A DNA stretch of 25,441 nucleotides from the IMG/VR virus record IMGVR_UViG_3300047354_000050, positions 1 to 25,441 of that record, one strand, 5' to 3'. Positions 1 to 24,133 of the stretch are shown piece after piece. The first letter of the stretch is position 1. Each line of letters starts with the position of its first letter. This stretch comes from a virus. The notes under the pieces were generated by a model. It was not told the origin of the DNA. It made no database searches and saw only the letters and a list, made by a program, of their open reading frames with translations. Both the position numbers and the translations under genes were made by a program.

Positions 1-1332
1 GACGCCAAACTTGAATCCATTAGCAGTGAATGGGTCGCCACCACCAGCTACGCTGATAACACCATTGCTATCAACAGCGATGGTTGTGCCATCTGGTTGT
101 ACAACACCAGTAGAAGATGTGGTTGCGATACTACCTGCAGTGAATGGAGAACCACCAATGGTAAATGCTGCTGCATCAACAGTTCCAACAAAAGTGGCAT
201 CGCCGTTAGCTTGTAAAGATACTTTTTCAACCTTCGTTCCACCAATATCAGAAAACAGTTGGAAAGTTTTCGATCCTGTGTTTGTTGTTTGAGAGTAAAG
301 ATCTACTGTAGAATCAGTTAGGTCTACGTTGCCACCAACCTCTACACCACTAGAAGTGGTTTCAAACTTCGTAGCACCAGCATAATTAAGCTTAACACCA
401 GCATTTGGTAAGCAATGAATCCATGCTTCATTAGCATTGGCAGTGTCTTGAATGTATAGTTCTGTACCTCTTAAGTAAAGATCACCAGTGCTACTATTTG
501 CAAGCATTGTATGATATCCACCAGCACCATCAGAATTGCTTGTGATAGATGTATTACCAGTTGGTCCAAGATTCAAGGTTCCTGCAAACGTGGCATTACC
601 AGGAGCATCGATTTCTGATGTGATTCCAGCAGTTCCTACTTGTCTACCCTTCCAGAGAGAACTTCCACTAATGTTAGCAATATAAATCTGTCCACCGTTG
701 CTTACACTAAATCCAGCATTAGTAGATGTCTCGTTGATACTACCACCAGGGAAGTCGCCAATAGGATATGTACTGAAACCGTATGGTACATACATTGATC
801 CACCAAAAACAGCTTCGGTAACCATCTGACCAGGAGTTATCTGATCTGCCGTTTTTAGAATAAAAGTTCCAGATGCAGAATGTAACTCGTCATTAACTTC
901 AAGATCTCCTAAAACTGTCGCACCTGTAAGACTAGTTGCAATTTTTTTAGCACCGTCATAGTAAAGTTCGACAGGACCATCTTTGAGAGCTGTGACATAC
1001 AGTTCACTAGTATCAGTCTTTGATCTGATCTGCAAAGCATCAGAATCAATGAACGATGTTAGGACACCTACCGAACCATCATAATAAATTTTTAGATCAG
1101 CATCATCACCAAAGTTCGCTGCTACATTATCAGAAAAGGTAGGACTGCTATTGAATGTTGCAATGTCGTCAAAGTCTACGGTGCCTTGGAATGTTACATC
1201 ACTAGAGAATGTTTTACTCCCACCAAATGTTTTTGCACCATCGACAGCGGTATCCAAATCTACAGCAATTTCGTTAATCTCCAAGCGTTGCTGCTCAAGA
1301 GTGTAAGACTTTGGTACGTTACGTAGTGTCAT
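1..1332 (-). CDS. Tail-fibre-like structural protein, N-terminal part (runs off left edge)
   Basis: The minus-strand frame is open from an ATG at 1332 to the window edge, giving 444 residues without a stop. The start MTLRNVPKSYTLEQQRLEIN, followed by NEIAVDLD, resembles the N-termini of cyanophage tail-fibre-like proteins. The rest is beta-rich with no cysteine-rich or enzymatic motif, and has recurring units of the type L-x-(I/L)-Y-Y-D-G: around residue 75 (LKIYYDG), 119 (VELYYDGAKK) and a degenerate copy near 312 (VKLNYAGATK), each of the last two followed by a T-x-x-G-x-x-V-x-G strand. Such repeats are typical of long phage fibres that reach the host surface; that role is inferred. The ATG overlaps the stop of the upstream 61-aa gene by 4 nt (ATGA), so translation is probably coupled. 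The C-terminal, receptor-binding part is outside the window, so specificity cannot be judged. Confidence 0.85.
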   Translation of the reverse strand, partial: MTLRNVPKSYTLEQQRLEINEIAVDLDTAVDGAKTFGGSKTFSSDVTFQGTVDFDDIATFNSSPTFSDNVAANFGDDADLKIYYDGSVGVLTSFIDSDALQIRSKTDTSELYVTALKDGPVELYYDGAKKIATSLTGATVLGDLEVNDELHSASGTFILKTADQITPGQMVTEAVFGGSMYVPYGFSTYPIGDFPGGSINETSTNAGFSVSNGGQIYIANISGSSLWKGRQVGTAGITSEIDAPGNATFAGTLNLGPTGNTSITSNSDGAGGYHTMLANSSTGDLYLRGTELYIQDTANANEAWIHCLPNAGVKLNYAGATKFETTSSGVEVGGNVDLTDSTVDLYSQTTNTGSKTFQLFSDIGGTKVEKVSLQANGDATFVGTVDAAAFTIGGSPFTAGSIATTSSTGVVQPDGTTIAVDSNGVISVAGGGDPFTANGFKFGV

Positions 1333-9660: not shown

Positions 9661-11526
9661 TCAGAATTCGATGACTAACTTGATATCCTCAATTTGGTCA
9701 GCTGCTCTAGTGATTAGTCTTCTGTTCTCTATGTATATGAGGTCTCCCGAGTTGTTTTCAATCTCTGGAGATGCAAGACCATCAGTAAAGATAGCACCCA
9801 CCAATTGAGTTCCATCTGCCAAGGCAACTTCAACTGTTCCTTGTGAAGCAGAAGCAGCACCAGTGATTGCATTTGCAGCATCAGATGCGAAGTCTCTTAC
9901 GATTCCGTTACCATCTGTATGATACTCTGGACTCTGGATATACTTCAGAACGCCGCTACCAGGGGTTCCTGGTGTTGGAGTTGGAGATCCAGCATCTAGG
10001 GTCCAAGAGACTACAGTGCCCATTGCAGTACCACCAGCAACGGTCTGGGAGATCATCTCATCTGGAGTAAAGTTTCCAGTTGCTCCAGTCAATTTAACTG
10101 ACTTTAGACCAGAAAGAGTATCTGCTGTAGCGAAGGTAGTTGTACCGTACTCAAGAGGATCCTTGATAATACCGATACGACGGAAGTCGTTATCTACAGG
10201 GAAGTCACCAGCATTCTCAACAAAGGTGAGACGAATATTCGTCATGACACGCTTTGTATTAAGTTCAGTTTCAAAGTCGGATCCGTGACCACCTTGAGGA
10301 GGAAGAATGACCTCTAGTGCTGCAGATGACGTTCCTGCAACTGCTTGAGATACGGTCAATGCTGTATCAGTAAAGAGACCAATTGCTTCAGTGCTTCCAG
10401 AAACTCCAGAAGGAACACCAGTTACAACTGGAACAGATGCATAAGTGTAACCAGATCCTGCTACTTCAAGTTCTGCAGCAGAAATAGCGCCAGCAGCAAC
10501 TGTTAGTTTGACAACACCACCAGAACCGTCTCCCATGATAGGAGCATAGAAAGTACCGTTGGTAAGACCTGTGCCAGCATCTTTGATAAGAGCGACGTTA
10601 ATAGAACCAGCAACAGCAGCAGTTTCAGTTGCAACTCTAGATGTTTCTCCTGCTGCAGCAATAGGCATGAAGTCAGAAGAAAGGAATGCTAGTACATCAT
10701 CGGTAGGCATGGTATACATGTACTTCCAGATGTAAGAAGCATCAGGAGCAGTAAAGATTCCAGCAGCATATGTACCTAGACCTGCTGAAGGGTTGGTCTT
10801 TGGTTCATGAACTACGTTAACACCAGTTGGGTTAGCGATGCTTTCACCATTATAAAGGCACTTGAATACTTCATAGTTCTGATTCATTACATAGAACTTT
10901 GAAGAACCAATGCCAGTTGCACCCGTAGCAGTAGAAACACCAATCTGTCCACCACCAGCTGGGGTAGCTGAATAATTTGGTTTCCACATATCAAACTTGG
11001 GATTGTTTGCTGTATCCCAGTTGTATCTTCTTACAACAGATCTTGCATAAGAAGAAGTAATTCTTTTTGCTGCAATAATATCGTCGTAAACGCTAAATTT
11101 CTCGGTTTGGTTGTCAAGGGGTACAGGAGGAACGTTCTCTGTAGAATATCTGTAGACACCTGTGGTTGCGGTAACACCCGTATCTGCCGAACCATCAGAC
11201 TCTTTTAGTGCTGACCCCAAAGCAGGAGCAGCAGTTGGAAGAGGACCAACTGATTGAATTAGTAGACTATTAGGACAAACCTTTGCGATAGTCCCTTTGA
11301 ATGTAGCAGAACCTAGTGCGGCACCTACATATACCTGATTACCAGCGGTAAAAGATCCGCCATCTGTTGCGTAAACTTCTAGATATGAATCCCATGCTTG
11401 GGGTCGGCCGACAAAGAAGTACATACGACTTCGGTCGGCACCAGTATCACTAGCGCCTTCAGTAAGAGACTCTAGGAACTGCTTTGCATTAAAAATTCTA
11501 AACTTTTCCGAGATAATAGCAGCCAT
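9661..11526 (-). CDS. 8: Baseplate wedge subunit gp8, enlarged, 621 aa
   Basis: Recognised as gp8 by three blocks that line up with T4 gp8: the N-terminal FRIFNAKQ and FFVGRPQAW (around residue 40; T4 has FGRSEPW), IWKYMYTMP near residue 267 (T4 VWEYLFEIP), and the C-terminal GDLIYIENRR plus ADQIEDIKLVIEF (T4 GEMIYMENRP, MDQTEEINILFTF). RRIGIIKDPLEYG near residue 450 matches T4 RQISIITNPLEA. T4 gp8 is about 334 aa. The extra length lies mainly between residues about 280 and 430, which include a GSGYT module near 355, and between 465 and 590, with a Pro/Thr linker (SPTPTPGTPGSG). In T4, gp8 is a dimer that binds gp7, gp10 and gp6 in the wedge. Here it follows the giant gp7-position gene by 55 nt, with its own late promoter in that gap. 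ATG start. Confidence 0.9.
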   Translation of the reverse strand: MAAIISEKFRIFNAKQFLESLTEGASDTGADRSRMYFFVGRPQAWDSYLEVYATDGGSFTAGNQVYVGAALGSATFKGTIAKVCPNSLLIQSVGPLPTAAPALGSALKESDGSADTGVTATTGVYRYSTENVPPVPLDNQTEKFSVYDDIIAAKRITSSYARSVVRRYNWDTANNPKFDMWKPNYSATPAGGGQIGVSTATGATGIGSSKFYVMNQNYEVFKCLYNGESIANPTGVNVVHEPKTNPSAGLGTYAAGIFTAPDASYIWKYMYTMPTDDVLAFLSSDFMPIAAAGETSRVATETAAVAGSINVALIKDAGTGLTNGTFYAPIMGDGSGGVVKLTVAAGAISAAELEVAGSGYTYASVPVVTGVPSGVSGSTEAIGLFTDTALTVSQAVAGTSSAALEVILPPQGGHGSDFETELNTKRVMTNIRLTFVENAGDFPVDNDFRRIGIIKDPLEYGTTTFATADTLSGLKSVKLTGATGNFTPDEMISQTVAGGTAMGTVVSWTLDAGSPTPTPGTPGSGVLKYIQSPEYHTDGNGIVRDFASDAANAITGAASASQGTVEVALADGTQLVGAIFTDGLASPEIENNSGDLIYIENRRLITRAADQIEDIKLVIEF

Positions 11527-14500: not shown

Positions 14501-17500
14501 AATTACATCACGCCACTGGTTGATTGGTGTCCTAGATCTAACAACATAGGAATAATCTTGATAGAAATTAGAATCATGGATTCTTTGATTGCTAGAACTT
14601 ACCTTTCCTCTGTCGGAAGTAAATCTACCAATTGTTTTTTCTCTAGTAACAATGTTAGGAATAAACGAAGATCTACTGATTGTCTTGATACGAGCAGTTT
14701 TCTTTCTACTCTTTCCAATGATAGTCTGTCCCTCTTTAAAAACACCGACAATATCTTCCAAACGTAGAATATTAGATCCTACTCTCCATCCATTTTGAGC
14801 AACTATGCCTTGAGCAACAATAATACCATTTACTTTCTGTTCAATAGTTTCGCCAGGTCTAAATGCATCTAAATCAAAGCTATCAAGAATAAAAACATTA
14901 GGTGAATAGTAATTTGATCTAATCGTACTATCACTATGGAATCCAGATCCATTTCTTACAAAATTAACGTTTTGTGGACGACCAATATTATCAGACACAA
15001 AAAACATCTTATTGTCTGTTTCAATAATTTCTAGTTCTGGTGTGGTGGTATAATTACCAGGATCAGTAATTCTAACTTGAGTGATGATACCATCCTTTAC
15101 ATCAGCAATTGCTTTAAGACCACTTCCTAGACCAGAAGCAACAACAACTTCTGGTTTGGAATATCCTTGACCTGGAGTAACAATATCAATTGAAATAATG
15201 TTATTAGTGGCTATATCCCTAATAGCAGTAACGACTGCTTTGTATCCATCTGCAGGGACTACACCTTTAATAATTGGCAACTTATCATATTCAGATCCAA
15301 GATTGTCTAATTTGATAGAATGAATCTTACCAACTGACCTACCTGTATATCTAATCTCTCCAGTTCCATCATATTGAGGAACATCAGAAAGTTTGTAGAC
15401 AACTTTTTTGTCTGTGGTATATGCAACTTCTTTTCTACCCGATAGAGGGTCATCAACAATACGAAGATAAGATCCTTCAGTATCAGTTGTGGAAGAAGTC
15501 AAGAAATAGTAGTAACTTGTGAAGTTAACATCTTTTCTTGTTTGTTCTCCAATGTTTGCGCCATATCCAAGTCTAATTCTCACAAACGCACCAGCATTAC
15601 CAGGTTCATTCAAACCAACTTCTTTTTCTTCAGTAAAGACATTGAAGTTTGGACTGGTTGAAATATCAAGGTAAGAGTTCAACATCGAAGGATGACTTAC
15701 ATCAAACTTGTAGAAATAATACTTTTGAATATCTACAATAGGATTAGTGAGGAAACTTGTGTTATCTGTAGAGAATAGAAGCTTATCAACAACATCACCT
15801 ACTGAACCGACAGTAACGATTTTTTGTGGACTACTGGTATCAACAATTGAAGATACTGTAGTCAAAGCAACAGGACTAGTTGCATTGTAATCCCAGTTGA
15901 CAATTAGTTTTTTAGTTTCCTTATTGTAAGAAACAACTACTGGTGCATTGACGCCAGTTCCAATTCTTGTACCCTCTGCAAATCGGTAATTCGGCAAATA
16001 AGATACTAATTCTTTATCATTAGAATGGTTAACTTTAATAGTTCCTTCTTGAGCTCTTGCTACCGAAATATTTTTATTATCTGTATCTACAGCAGTAATT
16101 TTAATAATTTCGTTACCAATAGATACAAGATCGTCAACTGATGCTGCAAAAGTATTAGTAACGTTTACGTCTGTTCTATCAACACCAAAACCAACAGCAT
16201 CAACGTTAATTAGTGGACCAGCAGCACTTGGTGCAGGATACACTGTGATAGTTCCACGAGCTTCTGGATGAGTTACACAGACATATTGATATACACCAGG
16301 AACTGTAGGTACAAAGACAATAGGATCTGTTACAGATCCACTGTTAGTAACACCAGCAGCAACTGTATAATCGACAGTAAATTGAGCACGACCATCATCT
16401 TTGAGTCCCAACTCAATGTCAGATACAACATGCACTGCATGACCAGGCATTGGTTGTAAAGTAAGAGTAGATCCTACTCGTATTTCATAATCTGGGTTTC
16501 GCTCACCTTGATCATCTTCAAATCTGTATTGGGGTTTAAGACTACCTGGAGGGCTGTATATGTCAACACTAGTAATTGCAACACCACTAATAGTATCTGA
16601 AGTAGTTAAATCTTCACCTTCAGTATCAGCAACAAAGTAAGTGATGGAAAAATTTGCATCATCTTTAGAAATATAGATGAGATTAGTGCCACCAGAATCA
16701 TTTTGGAAGAATCCGCCAGGAGTGCCCAGTGCTGTTACAACAGTTGGATAATCTGCTTCAGCAACGAAGAATCTTTTCTGTGCATAAGAATCAACTTCTG
16801 TTTGATTCAAATACACCATCGATAGAATCGGAGAGATGTCTGAATCAGCTGCATCTACTTTAGCAATAGCAGATGGATCAATTGTTAAGATATCGTCTGC
16901 TTTATAATTTGCACCAGCACTAGTGATGGTAATATTACCAATATTACCGCTATTATCAAAATTAGCAGTATCTACACTTACAGATGCCTTTGCTGCTACT
17001 ACGTCAGATCTCGACAAAGCAGAATTAGCAAATACAAGAGGGACATCAGTATACTCCCCAGAAATGTAATCTTTACCTAAACCAAGTACAGTAGACTCAC
17101 CAACACCAGTATCATCAACCTTTGCACTATATTCATTTGGAAGTAAAGTGATCTCTTGAAACTTTTTCTTCGTTACATAATAAGTTGTCTCTGTAGTAGC
17201 AGGATCAGGATCTACTGTGATATTAATAATATCTCCAGTACCAAAGTCATGATTTTCAGTTGTTTCTAGAATAGCAATAGACTCATCAACATCAGTAATA
17301 TTAATATCTCTACTCAATTGATTGATAATTACAATCTCTGTTCCTGCAGTATTACCTAGGTCAGAACTTTTAAGAATTACTTCACCTTCATTATAATTGA
17401 GATAATCAGCAAAATCACCACTCGTAACCTTCAGACGAACTGAATTTTGGTCAATAGTTTGATTTAGGATTTCTCCAGTAGCAATCTCTGTTGTTGGATC

Positions 17501-20665: not shown

Positions 20666-22468
20666 TTACTCTGGATATACCGCGAACTTGCTATTTGCAA
20701 CATCTAAATCTAGATACATGTGTCTAGATGCACTGATGTCATTGTTACGTGGGATCACTCGAACCGAGATTCTGTTGTCAAAGAAGGTTCCCTGTAAGAT
20801 GGTTACATCATATAATTTGATTTCGCCTTCCTCATAATCAACATCGCCAATATTGTCGTTCAGGACAATCTTTTCACCTGTACCAGGATCCAATCTATAT
20901 AGGACGATTTTACCATCCCTGTCTTCAAAATAAACGACAACATTGGGATAAGCAGTGACCTTGAATCCTGTTGACATAACAACAGGTCCATCTTCAGGAC
21001 ATGACAACTTAAATGGGTTCTGGAAACAAAGTTCGTAGTAAGTAGTAGTATTGATTTGTGGATAGAAATCCTTCCTCATCATTACTGTCGTAGTGTTGGA
21101 AGTAACTGAACGATCAGCGTTGTCAATTACTCCAACATACTTACTATATCTAAATTTGCCGTTAAATTTCTCGGTATCAGATAGTTTAGTATACTCTTCT
21201 ACTGAATTAGTGACTTTAGTTTTAACATCAGTAGGGAATTGATTTGTAATACGTGTATTGAAACTGACTCTACTGTCTAGTTCTAGATACAAGATTGATG
21301 GATCCTTGATTTCTGGAGTGACTGATGCTACAGCATAGTCTTTCAATCTAGCAATAATTTGCTTTTTAGTCACACTAGAAAGTGTAGCACCACTATCTGG
21401 TTTGATGACAATCTTGACTTTACCAAATTCAGGGTATCTCTCCTCTTCACCACCATATGTAATGATGTCAGATACTGCAGGATAAATTTCTCTTACAATA
21501 GCACCATAGTCCATTGCAGTAACTGCTCTGTTCTGTGTGGCATATAGTTTAGGAGCATTGAACTTAATCTTATCAATACTTTCAATTCCCGCTCCACCAT
21601 CAGCTGCAGAAACTGTTGTAATGTTAGTTACCGTAAGTGGGTATGCAGTACCGTTATTATCCTGTAGAACACCACTAAATGTAAATACACTAGCGCCATT
21701 TGCTGCAGCACCACCAGAAATTAAGTATGATACCTCAACAAAGTTATCATTCTCTAGCGCAGATCCAACTACACCATCACCAAAAAAGAGTTGATATTGC
21801 TCATCAGCGTTTTCATCTACGTAATAGATCTTGTCAGATGCTCCAATATCAATGATATTGTTGATCTGATTGTAGTATGCAAACTCTGATGCTCCCTCGA
21901 TGGGGAATACCTTGACACGCAGTGTGCTTGTGTCCGCACCACTGTTCTTTAGAATGAACTTTTGATTTTTTAATACCGTAGACTTGGTATAAGTCTCTTC
22001 AATGAGAGTACCTTCTTGGAGTACAACGTTCTCAAAAATTGCTTGACCGTTAACAACCCCCGCTTTGTAATCATCAATTACGACAAAACGATATAACTGA
22101 TCATCAAATGTAGTAACAAATCCCGTGCCTTTCTTCAAGGTAATGACACTTGGGTATGTTCCTGTAAAATTTACTTGAAAATTAACTGTTGCTTGCGGAG
22201 AAACAATAGACTTTGGTTTATATCCTAATTGTTTCGCAAGAGATACAACGTTATCACGGAGTGTTGCTGACTCCAAAAACAACTCATTAGCCACCATGTT
22301 CGTGTTGAACGCGGTGTAATACGTATTATATGCTAGTACATCTAGCAAATTACTCCAGGCAGACCCTTCAAAATCAAAATCGACAAAATCAGTCTGCGCT
22401 CTTAAGTAATCTTTGAGCGCAGTCTTGATATCTGCAAAATCTAAATTATTTACTTGAATGTACTTCAT
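20666..22468 (-). CDS. 6: Baseplate wedge subunit gp6 (baseplate J-like), 600 aa
   Basis: The N-terminus (DIKTALKDYLRAQTDFVDFD, then GSAWSNLLDVLAYNTYYTAF and ANELFLESATLRDNV, then LAKQLGYKPKS) is characteristic of the T4 gp6 / baseplate J family: a helical start, a wedge-core loop and an LGY-x-P motif at about residues 80-90. The length of 600 is close to T4 gp6 (660). In T4, gp6 dimers link neighbouring wedges and form the inner ring of the baseplate around the hub. Start and upstream stop overlap (ATGA at 22465-22468), so gp6 is probably translated by coupling to gp25, as expected for subunits of the same complex. An AGAGAA stretch about ten bases upstream could act as a ribosome site. The giant gp7-position gene begins three bases after its stop. 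Confidence 0.95.
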   Translation of the reverse strand: MKYIQVNNLDFADIKTALKDYLRAQTDFVDFDFEGSAWSNLLDVLAYNTYYTAFNTNMVANELFLESATLRDNVVSLAKQLGYKPKSIVSPQATVNFQVNFTGTYPSVITLKKGTGFVTTFDDQLYRFVVIDDYKAGVVNGQAIFENVVLQEGTLIEETYTKSTVLKNQKFILKNSGADTSTLRVKVFPIEGASEFAYYNQINNIIDIGASDKIYYVDENADEQYQLFFGDGVVGSALENDNFVEVSYLISGGAAANGASVFTFSGVLQDNNGTAYPLTVTNITTVSAADGGAGIESIDKIKFNAPKLYATQNRAVTAMDYGAIVREIYPAVSDIITYGGEEERYPEFGKVKIVIKPDSGATLSSVTKKQIIARLKDYAVASVTPEIKDPSILYLELDSRVSFNTRITNQFPTDVKTKVTNSVEEYTKLSDTEKFNGKFRYSKYVGVIDNADRSVTSNTTTVMMRKDFYPQINTTTYYELCFQNPFKLSCPEDGPVVMSTGFKVTAYPNVVVYFEDRDGKIVLYRLDPGTGEKIVLNDNIGDVDYEEGEIKLYDVTILQGTFFDNRISVRVIPRNNDISASRHMYLDLDVANSKFAVYPE

Positions 22469-22860
22469 CGGGTTCTCTGTAAGAGGAAGTTGACGTTTTG
22501 AGGTGGTTCGTCTTGACGACCACGAATTATAAACTCAATAGCAACGTCAAAGGCATTATCATCAAAGTTTGGGTCAACTGCCAAATCTGTCAATGTGACC
22601 CTAGACTCGTATTTCCTCAAAGTGGTTCTGATTTGGTCTTCAATCAAACCCGCTGTACCAAAATCAAGTGGTTCAAATAGTAATTCAGAAATACCACAAC
22701 CCAACTCATCGTCGAAGAATCTTTCTCCAGGAGTAGTCAATATAAGATTAACAACTGACTGCTTAACAGATGCATCGTCTTTAGTTACTAGTAAGTCACC
22801 CGTAATTGGATGAGGCTTCATAGTAACCTTTAAATCTTTAAAAGACTGTTGATTGGGCAC
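22465..22860 (-). CDS. 25: Baseplate wedge subunit gp25 (lysozyme-like fold), 131 aa
   Basis: The 131-residue length equals T4 gp25 (132). The GPW/gp25 family signature is clear: KPHPITGDLLVTKDDASVKQ near residues 16-35, NLILTTPGERFFDDELGCGI at about 38-57, then LLFEPLD and a helical ...LIEDQIRTTLRKYE segment followed by a strand-rich end. gp25 is a conserved wedge component in phages and in type VI secretion, linking gp6 to the sheath; it has no required enzymatic activity. The start is a GTG at 22860, giving MPNQQSFKDLK, which fits the usual N-terminus; the next in-frame ATG would remove the first 13 residues. No Shine-Dalgarno sequence is seen. A late promoter-like CATAAATA lies 20 bases upstream, and the stop overlaps the gp6 start. 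Confidence 0.95.
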   Translation of the reverse strand: MPNQQSFKDLKVTMKPHPITGDLLVTKDDASVKQSVVNLILTTPGERFFDDELGCGISELLFEPLDFGTAGLIEDQIRTTLRKYESRVTLTDLAVDPNFDDNAFDVAIEFIIRGRQDEPPQNVNFLLQRTR

Positions 22861-22878
22861 AATAACACGATTTATTGT

Positions 22879-23007
22879 TTATTTATGGTCCTTTTTCTTA
22901 TCTTCTGTCTTGATCTTTTTTAAGATCCTATCAGACTCTATTTGAGTGATAAGAGTCATTCCTGATTTGATAAAATCTTTACTCTTATCAGTTGGTGAAT
23001 TACCCAT
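22879..23007 (-). CDS. Small hydrophilic protein, 42 aa
   Basis: A 42-residue ORF, MGNSPTDKSKDFIKSGMTLI followed by TQIESDRILKKIKTEDKKK, between the 217-aa gene and gp25. The best evidence that it is expressed is a strong Shine-Dalgarno sequence (AAGGAGA at 23014-23020), six bases before the ATG, the clearest in the window. The start overlaps the end of the upstream gene by 8 nt, so coupling is likely. The protein is Lys-rich with a short amphipathic helix (about residues 10-34) and a basic tail. I do not recognise a family with certainty, though similar small proteins with E-S-D-R-I-L-K-K occur near baseplate genes of marine T4-like phages. Function unknown; the location suggests a baseplate assembly factor or minor component. 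Confidence 0.7.
   Translation of the reverse strand: MGNSPTDKSKDFIKSGMTLITQIESDRILKKIKTEDKKKDHK
22880..22887 (-). promoter_or_regulatory. Late promoter-like box upstream of gp25
   Basis: The minus strand reads CATAAATA, seven of eight bases of the T4 late box, and fits the looser NATAAATA form described for cyanophages. It lies 20 nt upstream of the gp25 GTG and overlaps the stop codon of the 42-aa gene. The leader would be very short. Its position at the head of the wedge module supports a role, but the match alone is weak. Confidence 0.45.
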
Positions 23008-23653
23008 TTTCTTTCTCCTTTGGTGTTTGCCAGAAATAATCGTCAGTGTCTCCTAGGCGTCCCCAGTCAATTCCTGCCTCTACTTGGTATTCTATAGTGG
23101 ATACCTTAAAGTCAGGGAATTGAGGGTCCTGGGGGGTTATAGAGAGGTCATACAAGCGCATTCTATTATTAGGATATAGTGCATACTGACCGTTGTTTAG
23201 AGCGATACAATTATGCGACTTGTGCTCTTGTGGCACCTCACTTACATTATTATCTATAACATCGATGTTTGCATGATAGTTATCTAATGTAAACAAGTAT
23301 TGACCTTTCATCAATCCATGGTCTCTTGTAAAGACTTCACAGTCCATTGATGATACAAATCCCTTGTTCATACATGCTACCCCATAATCCATACAATTCC
23401 AAAATTGTAGATTCTCCAGACTCATATCAACATCTGGTGTTTTAGGTGATCTTACAAATGCACTGATAGGTAGCTTGTCATACATTGCTCCATATGTAGG
23501 CAAGTATGTCTCAAAGTAAAAAGCACGCCCAGGTATGCTTTTAGCACATACCCAGACGCCCTCTACAAACTCCCCATGCCCGTCTTGATGATCTCGTAAG
23601 TATTCCTTACGAACCCACACCTTCTCTGCAGGAAGATTGCAAATTAAATTCAC
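23000..23653 (-). CDS. Conserved hypothetical protein of T4-like marine phages, 217 aa
   Basis: The protein begins MNLICNLPAEKVWVRKEYLR and contains SIPGRAFYFETYLPTYGAMY, LQFWNCMDYG, HGLMKGQYLFTLDNYHANID, HKSHN, NGQYALYPNNRMR and a C-terminal WGRLGDTDDYFWQTP. I recognise this pattern as a family widely present in marine T4-like phages without an assigned function. It is rich in Tyr, Trp and His, has no signal peptide or membrane segment, and looks like a compact globular protein. I see no known catalytic motif; the clustered His and Cys residues (five Cys) could bind metal, but no standard motif is formed. The start is a GTG that overlaps the stop of the 48-aa gene (GTGA, 23650-23653). Its place between PAAR and gp25 suggests a virion or assembly role, by inference only. 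Confidence 0.85.
   Translation of the reverse strand: MNLICNLPAEKVWVRKEYLRDHQDGHGEFVEGVWVCAKSIPGRAFYFETYLPTYGAMYDKLPISAFVRSPKTPDVDMSLENLQFWNCMDYGVACMNKGFVSSMDCEVFTRDHGLMKGQYLFTLDNYHANIDVIDNNVSEVPQEHKSHNCIALNNGQYALYPNNRMRLYDLSITPQDPQFPDFKVSTIEYQVEAGIDWGRLGDTDDYFWQTPKEKENG
23014..23020 (-). promoter_or_regulatory. Strong ribosome-binding site of the 42-aa gene
   Basis: AAGGAGA on the minus strand, six bases before the ATG at 23007 and located inside the last codons of the 217-aa gene. It stands out because most other starts in this window have weak or no Shine-Dalgarno sequence, and it decides that this short frame is a real gene. Confidence 0.75.
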
Positions 23654-23833: not shown

Positions 23834-24133
23834 CTACAATCCTGCCAATACCGTATGAGACCCTTCTGTCATCACTGCACCATAGGATAACAGATCACCT
23901 ATACGCATAGTATCCATCTTGTTGATTCGGACTCTTTTAGACCCCTTCACACACTTATCAGTATGTGGTGGTTTATTTCCACATACATGAACTGCAGTTA
24001 CATCACCAACTCTTACTGCTGCAATCTTATTCACAAAAACATTCAATGAACCAGTAATTACAGGTACAGGTGGCCAACACTGATGACCACTCTCCAAATC
24101 CTTCATTCGACTGATTCCACTTCCTGCTGGCAT
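23834..24133 (-). CDS. PAAR-type spike tip protein, 99 aa
   Basis: The length and layout fit a PAAR protein, the sharp metal-bound cone that caps the central tail spike (T4 gp5.4) and type VI spikes. Visible repeats of the family are SGHQCWPP near residues 15-22, FVNKIAAVRVGDVTAVHVCG at 33-52, and VRINKMDTMRIGDLL near 67-81: three hairpins with the recurring (V/I)-N-x-x-x-x-x-R-x-G-D strand. Candidate metal ligands are His17, Cys19, His49, Cys51, His57 and Cys61; PAAR tips normally hold one zinc or iron through three His and one Cys, so there are spare residues here. The ATG shares one base with the stop of the 276-aa gene (TAATG) and is preceded by AAGGA, a usable ribosome site. Role in membrane piercing is from the family, not shown here. 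Confidence 0.88.
   Translation of the reverse strand: MPAGSGISRMKDLESGHQCWPPVPVITGSLNVFVNKIAAVRVGDVTAVHVCGNKPPHTDKCVKGSKRVRINKMDTMRIGDLLSYGAVMTEGSHTVLAGL

Follow-up and report, generated by a model that had tools for sequence, protein, structure and literature searches.

A cupredoxin-like domain inserted into a giant protein at the gp7 position of the baseplate wedge cluster of a marine cyanophage

A giant protein encoded among the baseplate wedge genes of a marine phage contains two short motifs, GHAVH and YVCVTHPEARG, that resemble the ligand loops of a type-1 copper protein. This raises the questions of whether the surrounding residues form a cupredoxin domain, how such a domain came to lie in a virion protein and whether it could still hold a metal when the usual axial Met is an Ala. 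The stretch of DNA analyzed here (25,441 nucleotides; hereafter the window) is a 25.4-kb piece of the genome of a marine T4-like cyanophage, and its features are listed in Table 1.

Table 1. Features of the window and of the giant protein discussed in the text
Feature	Residues of giant	Position in window	Strand	Basis or remark
Giant virion structural protein, 3026 aa		11582..20662	(-)	ORF; between gp6 and gp8 (T4 gp7 position)
YHYH domain of giant	748-859			Pfam YHYH, 1.1e-26
Inserted module	about 1277-1479	16226..16834	(-)	BLASTP breaks, junction alignment, presence/absence on tree
Cupredoxin (type-1 copper) domain, very probable	about 1372-1482	16217..16549	(-)	PDB profiles, AlphaFold, Foldseek
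First type-1 copper ligand position	His1408	16439..16441	(-)	Kept in 24/25 giants; invariant in 49-sequence alignment
Copper-thiolate position	Cys1462	16277..16279	(-)	Kept in 24/25 giants
Second His ligand position	His1465	16268..16270	(-)	Kept in 25/25 giants
Axial-Met position	Ala1468	16259..16261	(-)	Ala in 15/25, Met in 10/25 giants; Met in S-CAM1
gp8 baseplate wedge protein		9661..11526	(-)	Pfam Phage-Gp8, 9e-10
gp6 baseplate wedge protein		20666..22468	(-)	Pfam Gp6-like, 2.9e-16
gp25 baseplate wedge protein		22465..22860	(-)	Pfam GPW_gp25, 1.1e-14
PAAR-motif protein (spike tip type)		23834-24133	(-)	Adjoins wedge genes
DUF4815 protein, 2703 aa			(-)	Same strand as gp25, gp6, giant and gp8

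The giant protein and its inserted module

Genome comparison revealed that the order gp25-gp6-giant-gp8 is common to the window, S-CAM1, S-CAM3, and S-RSM4, and it is also found in S-PM2 and Syn1, but with one additional small gene ahead of gp8. The giant is thus encoded between gp6 and gp8 of the wedge cluster in the window and in five phage genomes, and consequently holds the position of T4 gp7. It shares with T4-like gp7 both this flanked position and PHROGs matches to a baseplate wedge family (phrog_2885), together with one to a virion structural family (phrog_4406), and its length is roughly threefold that of T4 gp7. Pfam Baseplate_wedge matched the giant weakly (0.0048), and a PDB sequence search with the whole giant produced no match; homology with T4 gp7 is therefore not established.

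The cupredoxin domain forms the C-terminal half of a module of approximately 200 residues; a Pfam search with the first ∼95 residues of this module matched no family. The giants of S-PM2, Syn1, S-RIM32, S-RSM4, Sf-CH11, and AG-345-P14 are collinear with that of the window but lack the module, with the two flanks directly joined in pairwise BLASTP comparisons and in the junction alignment. In a tblastn search of 465 phage records that contain the giant, the module was found only in S-CAM1 and S-CAM3 isolates, and it is also present in several dozen IMG/VR contigs. Its distribution on a tree built from the downstream flank is most parsimoniously accounted for by one gain, in a clade with 100/100 support, and one subsequent loss. 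Collectively, these data make it very likely that a single module was inserted, in one event, into the giant of one cyanophage clade comprising S-CAM1, S-CAM3, and their relatives. The giant of one lineage (locus L048) has more than 100 additional residues immediately upstream of the cupredoxin module, a sign that this junction tolerates insertions.

Fold and ligand residues of the domain

With the window sequence alone, the best evidence was suggestive at most, with a phmmer match to the M98A mutant of amicyanin in the PDB (E = 0.12) and a Pfam match to Copper-bind (E = 0.01) below the family cut-off. Neither match is decisive, and profiles of relatives were therefore used. A 49-sequence profile matched NirK (2e-9), auracyanin A (1.7e-7), amicyanin (4e-7), and plastocyanin (6e-7) in the PDB, and a profile of the 17 copies from giant proteins only matched NirK (1e-5) and amicyanin (6e-5). 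For both, every PDB match listed was a blue-copper or CuA cupredoxin, and the relation is therefore well beyond chance. When the profile was restricted to Ala-bearing copies, the top match in the whole PDB was the M98A amicyanin mutant (1e-3). By sequence profile, with PDB matches ranging from 2e-9 to 1e-3, the domain belongs to the cupredoxin superfamily.

The cupredoxin fold is a Greek-key β-sandwich of seven to eight strands that holds the metal at one of its ends. AlphaFold models were obtained for residues 1341–1492 (pLDDT 79 overall and about 90 in the core) and residues 1371–1482 (pLDDT 88.5), and in Foldseek searches with both the first matches were rusticyanin, amicyanin, pseudoazurin, AcoP, plastocyanin, and laccases, with a few Ig-V matches further down the list for the model of residues 1371–1482. 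The TM-scores to known cupredoxins are modest (0.3–0.53, with large r.m.s. deviations), which may be due to loops and to the length of the local alignments. The model puts the first His immediately before a strand, the Cys at the end of the last strand but one and the second His in the loop that follows; this is the arrangement characteristic of cupredoxins. The strand pattern and the leading Foldseek matches of the two models, at TM-scores of at most 0.53, both indicate a cupredoxin fold, and taken with the profiles leave little doubt that residues 1372–1482, approximately, are a cupredoxin domain.

The GHAVH motif begins at residue 1407 and YVCVTHPEARG at residue 1460, and the ligand codons were verified in the DNA. 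The two His and one Cys of a type-1 copper site are present as His1408, Cys1462, and His1465, and the axial Met is replaced in the window by Ala1468. An axial Met is usual in type-1 copper proteins but absent from some members. In the alignment, the spacing Cys-X2-His-X2-[Met/Ala] equals that of amicyanin, and the likeness extends to the first His in the matching strand (MPHNVH in amicyanin and MPGHAVH here), the β-sandwich and, for the M98A mutant (PDB code 2idq), the Ala at the axial position. Amicyanin is a free periplasmic electron carrier with methylamine dehydrogenase as its partner; the window domain is embedded in a phage structural protein of 3026 residues and carries additional residues between its first His and the strand with the Cys.

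The first loci had been fetched partly with Cys-containing patterns, which biased the apparent conservation; a second scan was therefore keyed on the downstream flank only, with no selection on the ligands. It confirmed the pattern, and also found a module-bearing giant (L256, IMGVR_UViG_3300020478_000060) in which the first His is replaced by Asp and the Cys by Val. The resulting census of 25 non-redundant module-bearing giants comprised 10 copies with His/Cys/His/Met, 14 with His/Cys/His/Ala, and one with Asp/Val/His/Ala. No copy in the census had lost just one of the first His and the Cys (n = 25), and this joint pattern, in which the two are lost together or not at all, counts in favor of a metal site. 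Cysteine is otherwise scarce in these proteins (3–8 per ∼3000 residues in the ten giants compared), and only two Cys columns are invariant among the ten, Cys1462 and Cys839 of the YHYH domain. Among the Ala copies alone, 38 of 103 columns are invariant and three invariant ligand columns would arise by chance with a probability of about 0.05; this statistic is weak, and a functional site in the Ala form is therefore argued from the joint pattern. A replacement axial ligand was not found among the Ala copies, where no other column gains a Met or His together with the Ala. Glu1467 was considered as a substitute and rejected, as it occurs in both Met and Ala copies.

At least three Met/Ala changes are needed on well supported branches of the tree, with His/Cys/His retained throughout. 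Met is probably ancestral at the axial position, because nearly all distant phage copies carry it, and its absence from the window is a lineage-specific replacement, not a family trait. The Asp/Val copy groups with giants that lack the module (support 88/91), as if loss of the ligands might have preceded loss of the whole domain. The dN/dS of the domain, about 0.1–0.3 in pairs with informative dS, reveals purifying selection, which is mostly weaker than in the neighboring regions, and the domain evolves faster; weaker constraint of this kind would be expected for an exposed appendage.

The preliminary description of this DNA had proposed a cupredoxin-like domain within a giant baseplate-position protein, and that proposal is borne out by the PDB profiles, by Foldseek, in which cupredoxins top the lists for both AlphaFold models, and by the gp6-giant-gp8 order. 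Its assignment of His1408, Cys1462, and His1465 to three of the four amicyanin ligands also agrees with the verified codons and the aligned spacing. Its statement that the axial Met is missing holds for the window, but does not extend to the family, as Met is present in S-CAM1, its relatives, and nearly all distant phage copies. It had further asked whether homologues carry Met, Gln, or Glu at position 1468: Met is found in 10 of 25 and the remaining 15 have Ala, with neither Gln nor Glu in any.

Relatives in phages and cells

A search with a fibre-type copy of the domain as query found the family in at least 70 phage records, at 83 places. The hosts of these phages are mostly Synechococcus and Prochlorococcus, and two of the phages are podoviruses. 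The matched proteins are annotated as tail fibre, tail spike, baseplate wedge connector or hypothetical, and none of the fibre and baseplate annotations inspected names a copper protein. The majority of the phage copies form part of long proteins of structural type, and an hhalign comparison of the Ala-bearing giant copies with the phage fibre copies (99.2%, E = 1.5e-19) places them in the same family. The fibre, spike, and baseplate-connector domains of P-SSM2, P-HM2, S-CAM4, P-TIM68, P-GSP1, and others thus share both family and virion-type context with the window domain; those of the P-SSM2/P-HM2 type differ from it in that His/Cys/His/Met is nearly always complete and in that they often lie at the C terminus of the protein. 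Two fibre copies are reduced: in a tail fibre of Synechococcus phage S-B05 (L125, 3501–3749) the His/Cys/His ligands are gone (GGFPF and YYQASNVAGM), making it a natural ligand-free copy, and a tail fibre of S-CAM1 (SXBG_00005; L120, 3501–3758) includes only the N-terminal half of the domain, without the Cys/His/Met loop.

Outside phages, the closest relatives of the fibre form are proteins of marine Bacteroidota (L128–L146), with up to 60% identity, and further relatives are found among the cupredoxins of Thaumarchaeota. The Bacteroidota proteins and one from Prochlorococcus are the closest cellular kin, and several have the domain at the C terminus. The Prochlorococcus protein (Prochlorococcus sp. 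AG-670-O13; L147, 3917–4333) is a 139-residue, exported, free-standing relative of the phage domain, encoded by a cyanobacterium of the host type. The idea that the phage domain mimics a host protein was weakened by the rarity of this free copy, which is found in just 2 of 151 genomes of its family. In a tree of all domains with the cellular relatives, the cupredoxin copies of the giants form one clade; the tree is built on few columns and does not fix the donor.

These relatives alter two points of the preliminary description. It had treated a blue-copper-like fold in a virion arm as an unusual case, but many marine phages carry such a domain in their tail-fibre or baseplate proteins; and it had turned to phage plastocyanin for comparison, whereas the closest relatives outside phages are the Bacteroidota proteins. 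A literature search, whose reach left out most subscription journals and bioRxiv preprints, returned no report of a cupredoxin or blue-copper domain as part of a phage virion.

Possible roles of the domain

Taken together, the results lend moderate preference to the view that the cupredoxin domain of the giant is an accessory part of the baseplate, gained from elsewhere, likely to bind copper without an axial ligand and serving stability or host contact. The domain would have been acquired horizontally, from a family widely used in marine phage tail fibres and baseplate proteins, and would have entered the gp7-position wedge protein once, inside the ∼200-residue module, where it probably protrudes from the baseplate. 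In the window lineage the axial Met would then have changed to Ala as the two His and the Cys stayed, and the likeliest state of the Ala site would be a trigonal His2Cys copper site like that of amicyanin M98A. The PDB entry of this mutant is titled 'Structure of M98A mutant of amicyanin, Cu(II)', and an axial Ala is therefore compatible with copper. Judged from sequence, the Met-bearing relatives probably bind copper, and the Ala form of the window may well do so, with somewhat less assurance. Any bound metal would most likely stiffen a surface domain for adsorption or baseplate packing, a role that would not require electron transfer. The grounds for surface exposure are just two, that the domain is an insertion and that it evolves faster than its neighbors, and they suggest an exposed position; a surface or adsorption role is accordingly put forward tentatively, at a little short of an even chance.

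The main rival, although a rather unlikely one, is that only the fold matters: the domain would be an Ig-like β-sandwich serving as spacer or binding module, with the site of the Ala lineage metal-free in the virion and its His and Cys either relics or structural. The repeated loss of Met on the tree fits this reading, as do the Asp/Val giant, which retains the domain although the first His and Cys are gone and is sister to a lineage without the whole module (88/91), and the two reduced fibre copies of S-B05 and S-CAM1. The ligand-free copies (the Asp/Val giant and the S-B05 fibre) demonstrate that a bound metal is not needed for the fold to be retained. Against this reading, His/Cys/His is retained in 14 of the 15 non-redundant Ala-bearing copies of the census, single losses of the first His or the Cys do not occur there, and elsewhere in the protein Cys is very scarce and poorly conserved. 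A more radical doubt, that this is not a cupredoxin but a generic phage Ig-like domain with ligand-like residues by chance, could draw on the sub-threshold Pfam score of the single sequence, the low ceiling of the TM-scores and the few Ig-V matches; three profile searches that match blue copper proteins first, and a ligand motif that aligns in the expected positions and with the expected spacing, render it very unlikely.

A copper site, if present, could also do more than stabilize. A tail copper center might exchange electrons with a partner in the host envelope, or sense redox state, at adsorption, and the distant relatives of the domain are indeed electron-transfer proteins, with cellular copies in Thaumarchaeota and one Prochlorococcus. 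Such a redox role, although conceivable, is unsupported and improbable: no partner is known, the axial ligand that tunes redox properties switches freely between Met and Ala, the phage copies lie mostly within long, structural-type proteins and the free copy of host type is as rare as noted above. Least probable of all is the capture of a plastocyanin gene (petE) that is retained to support photosynthesis in the host and became joined to a structural gene by accident. Cyanophages do carry petE as an auxiliary gene, described as metabolic (PMC3037559), and its product shares the cupredoxin superfamily with the window domain. PetE is nevertheless free-standing, outside the virion and equipped with the longer copper loop of plastocyanin, whereas the window domain has the short, amicyanin-type C-X2-H-X2-M loop (with Ala for Met) inside a virion structural protein, and its nearest relatives are fibre and baseplate domains in phages and Bacteroidota proteins in cells.

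If copper is bound, abundant ocean phages would bear redox-capable copper sites on the organ that contacts the host. A broader claim is doubtful: that marine cyanophage virions are copper metalloproteins, with type-1 centers akin to those of cellular cupredoxins in tail fibres and baseplates, some lineages retuned to a Met-free trigonal site, and the copper helping the virion to adsorb or to engage the host envelope. Copper borne on the tail would in that case be a counterpart to the iron-in-tail (Ferrojan horse) proposal, which several papers cite. Switching between Met and Ala against a fixed His/Cys/His, with a ligand-free copy beside a module-less lineage, amounts to a set of naturally occurring mutants of the type-1 copper site. 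For annotation, domains of this kind on viral contigs could pass for metabolic genes such as those for plastocyanin or nitrite reductase. A label of a different sort attaches to a 217-residue protein of the window (23000–23653, minus strand), whose counterpart is called 'ferredoxin' or 'PurM' in S-CAM1 records, neither name having support from Pfam. This protein is 97.7% identical to that of S-CAM1, as compared with just 68% for the giant two genes on, which suggests recent exchange.
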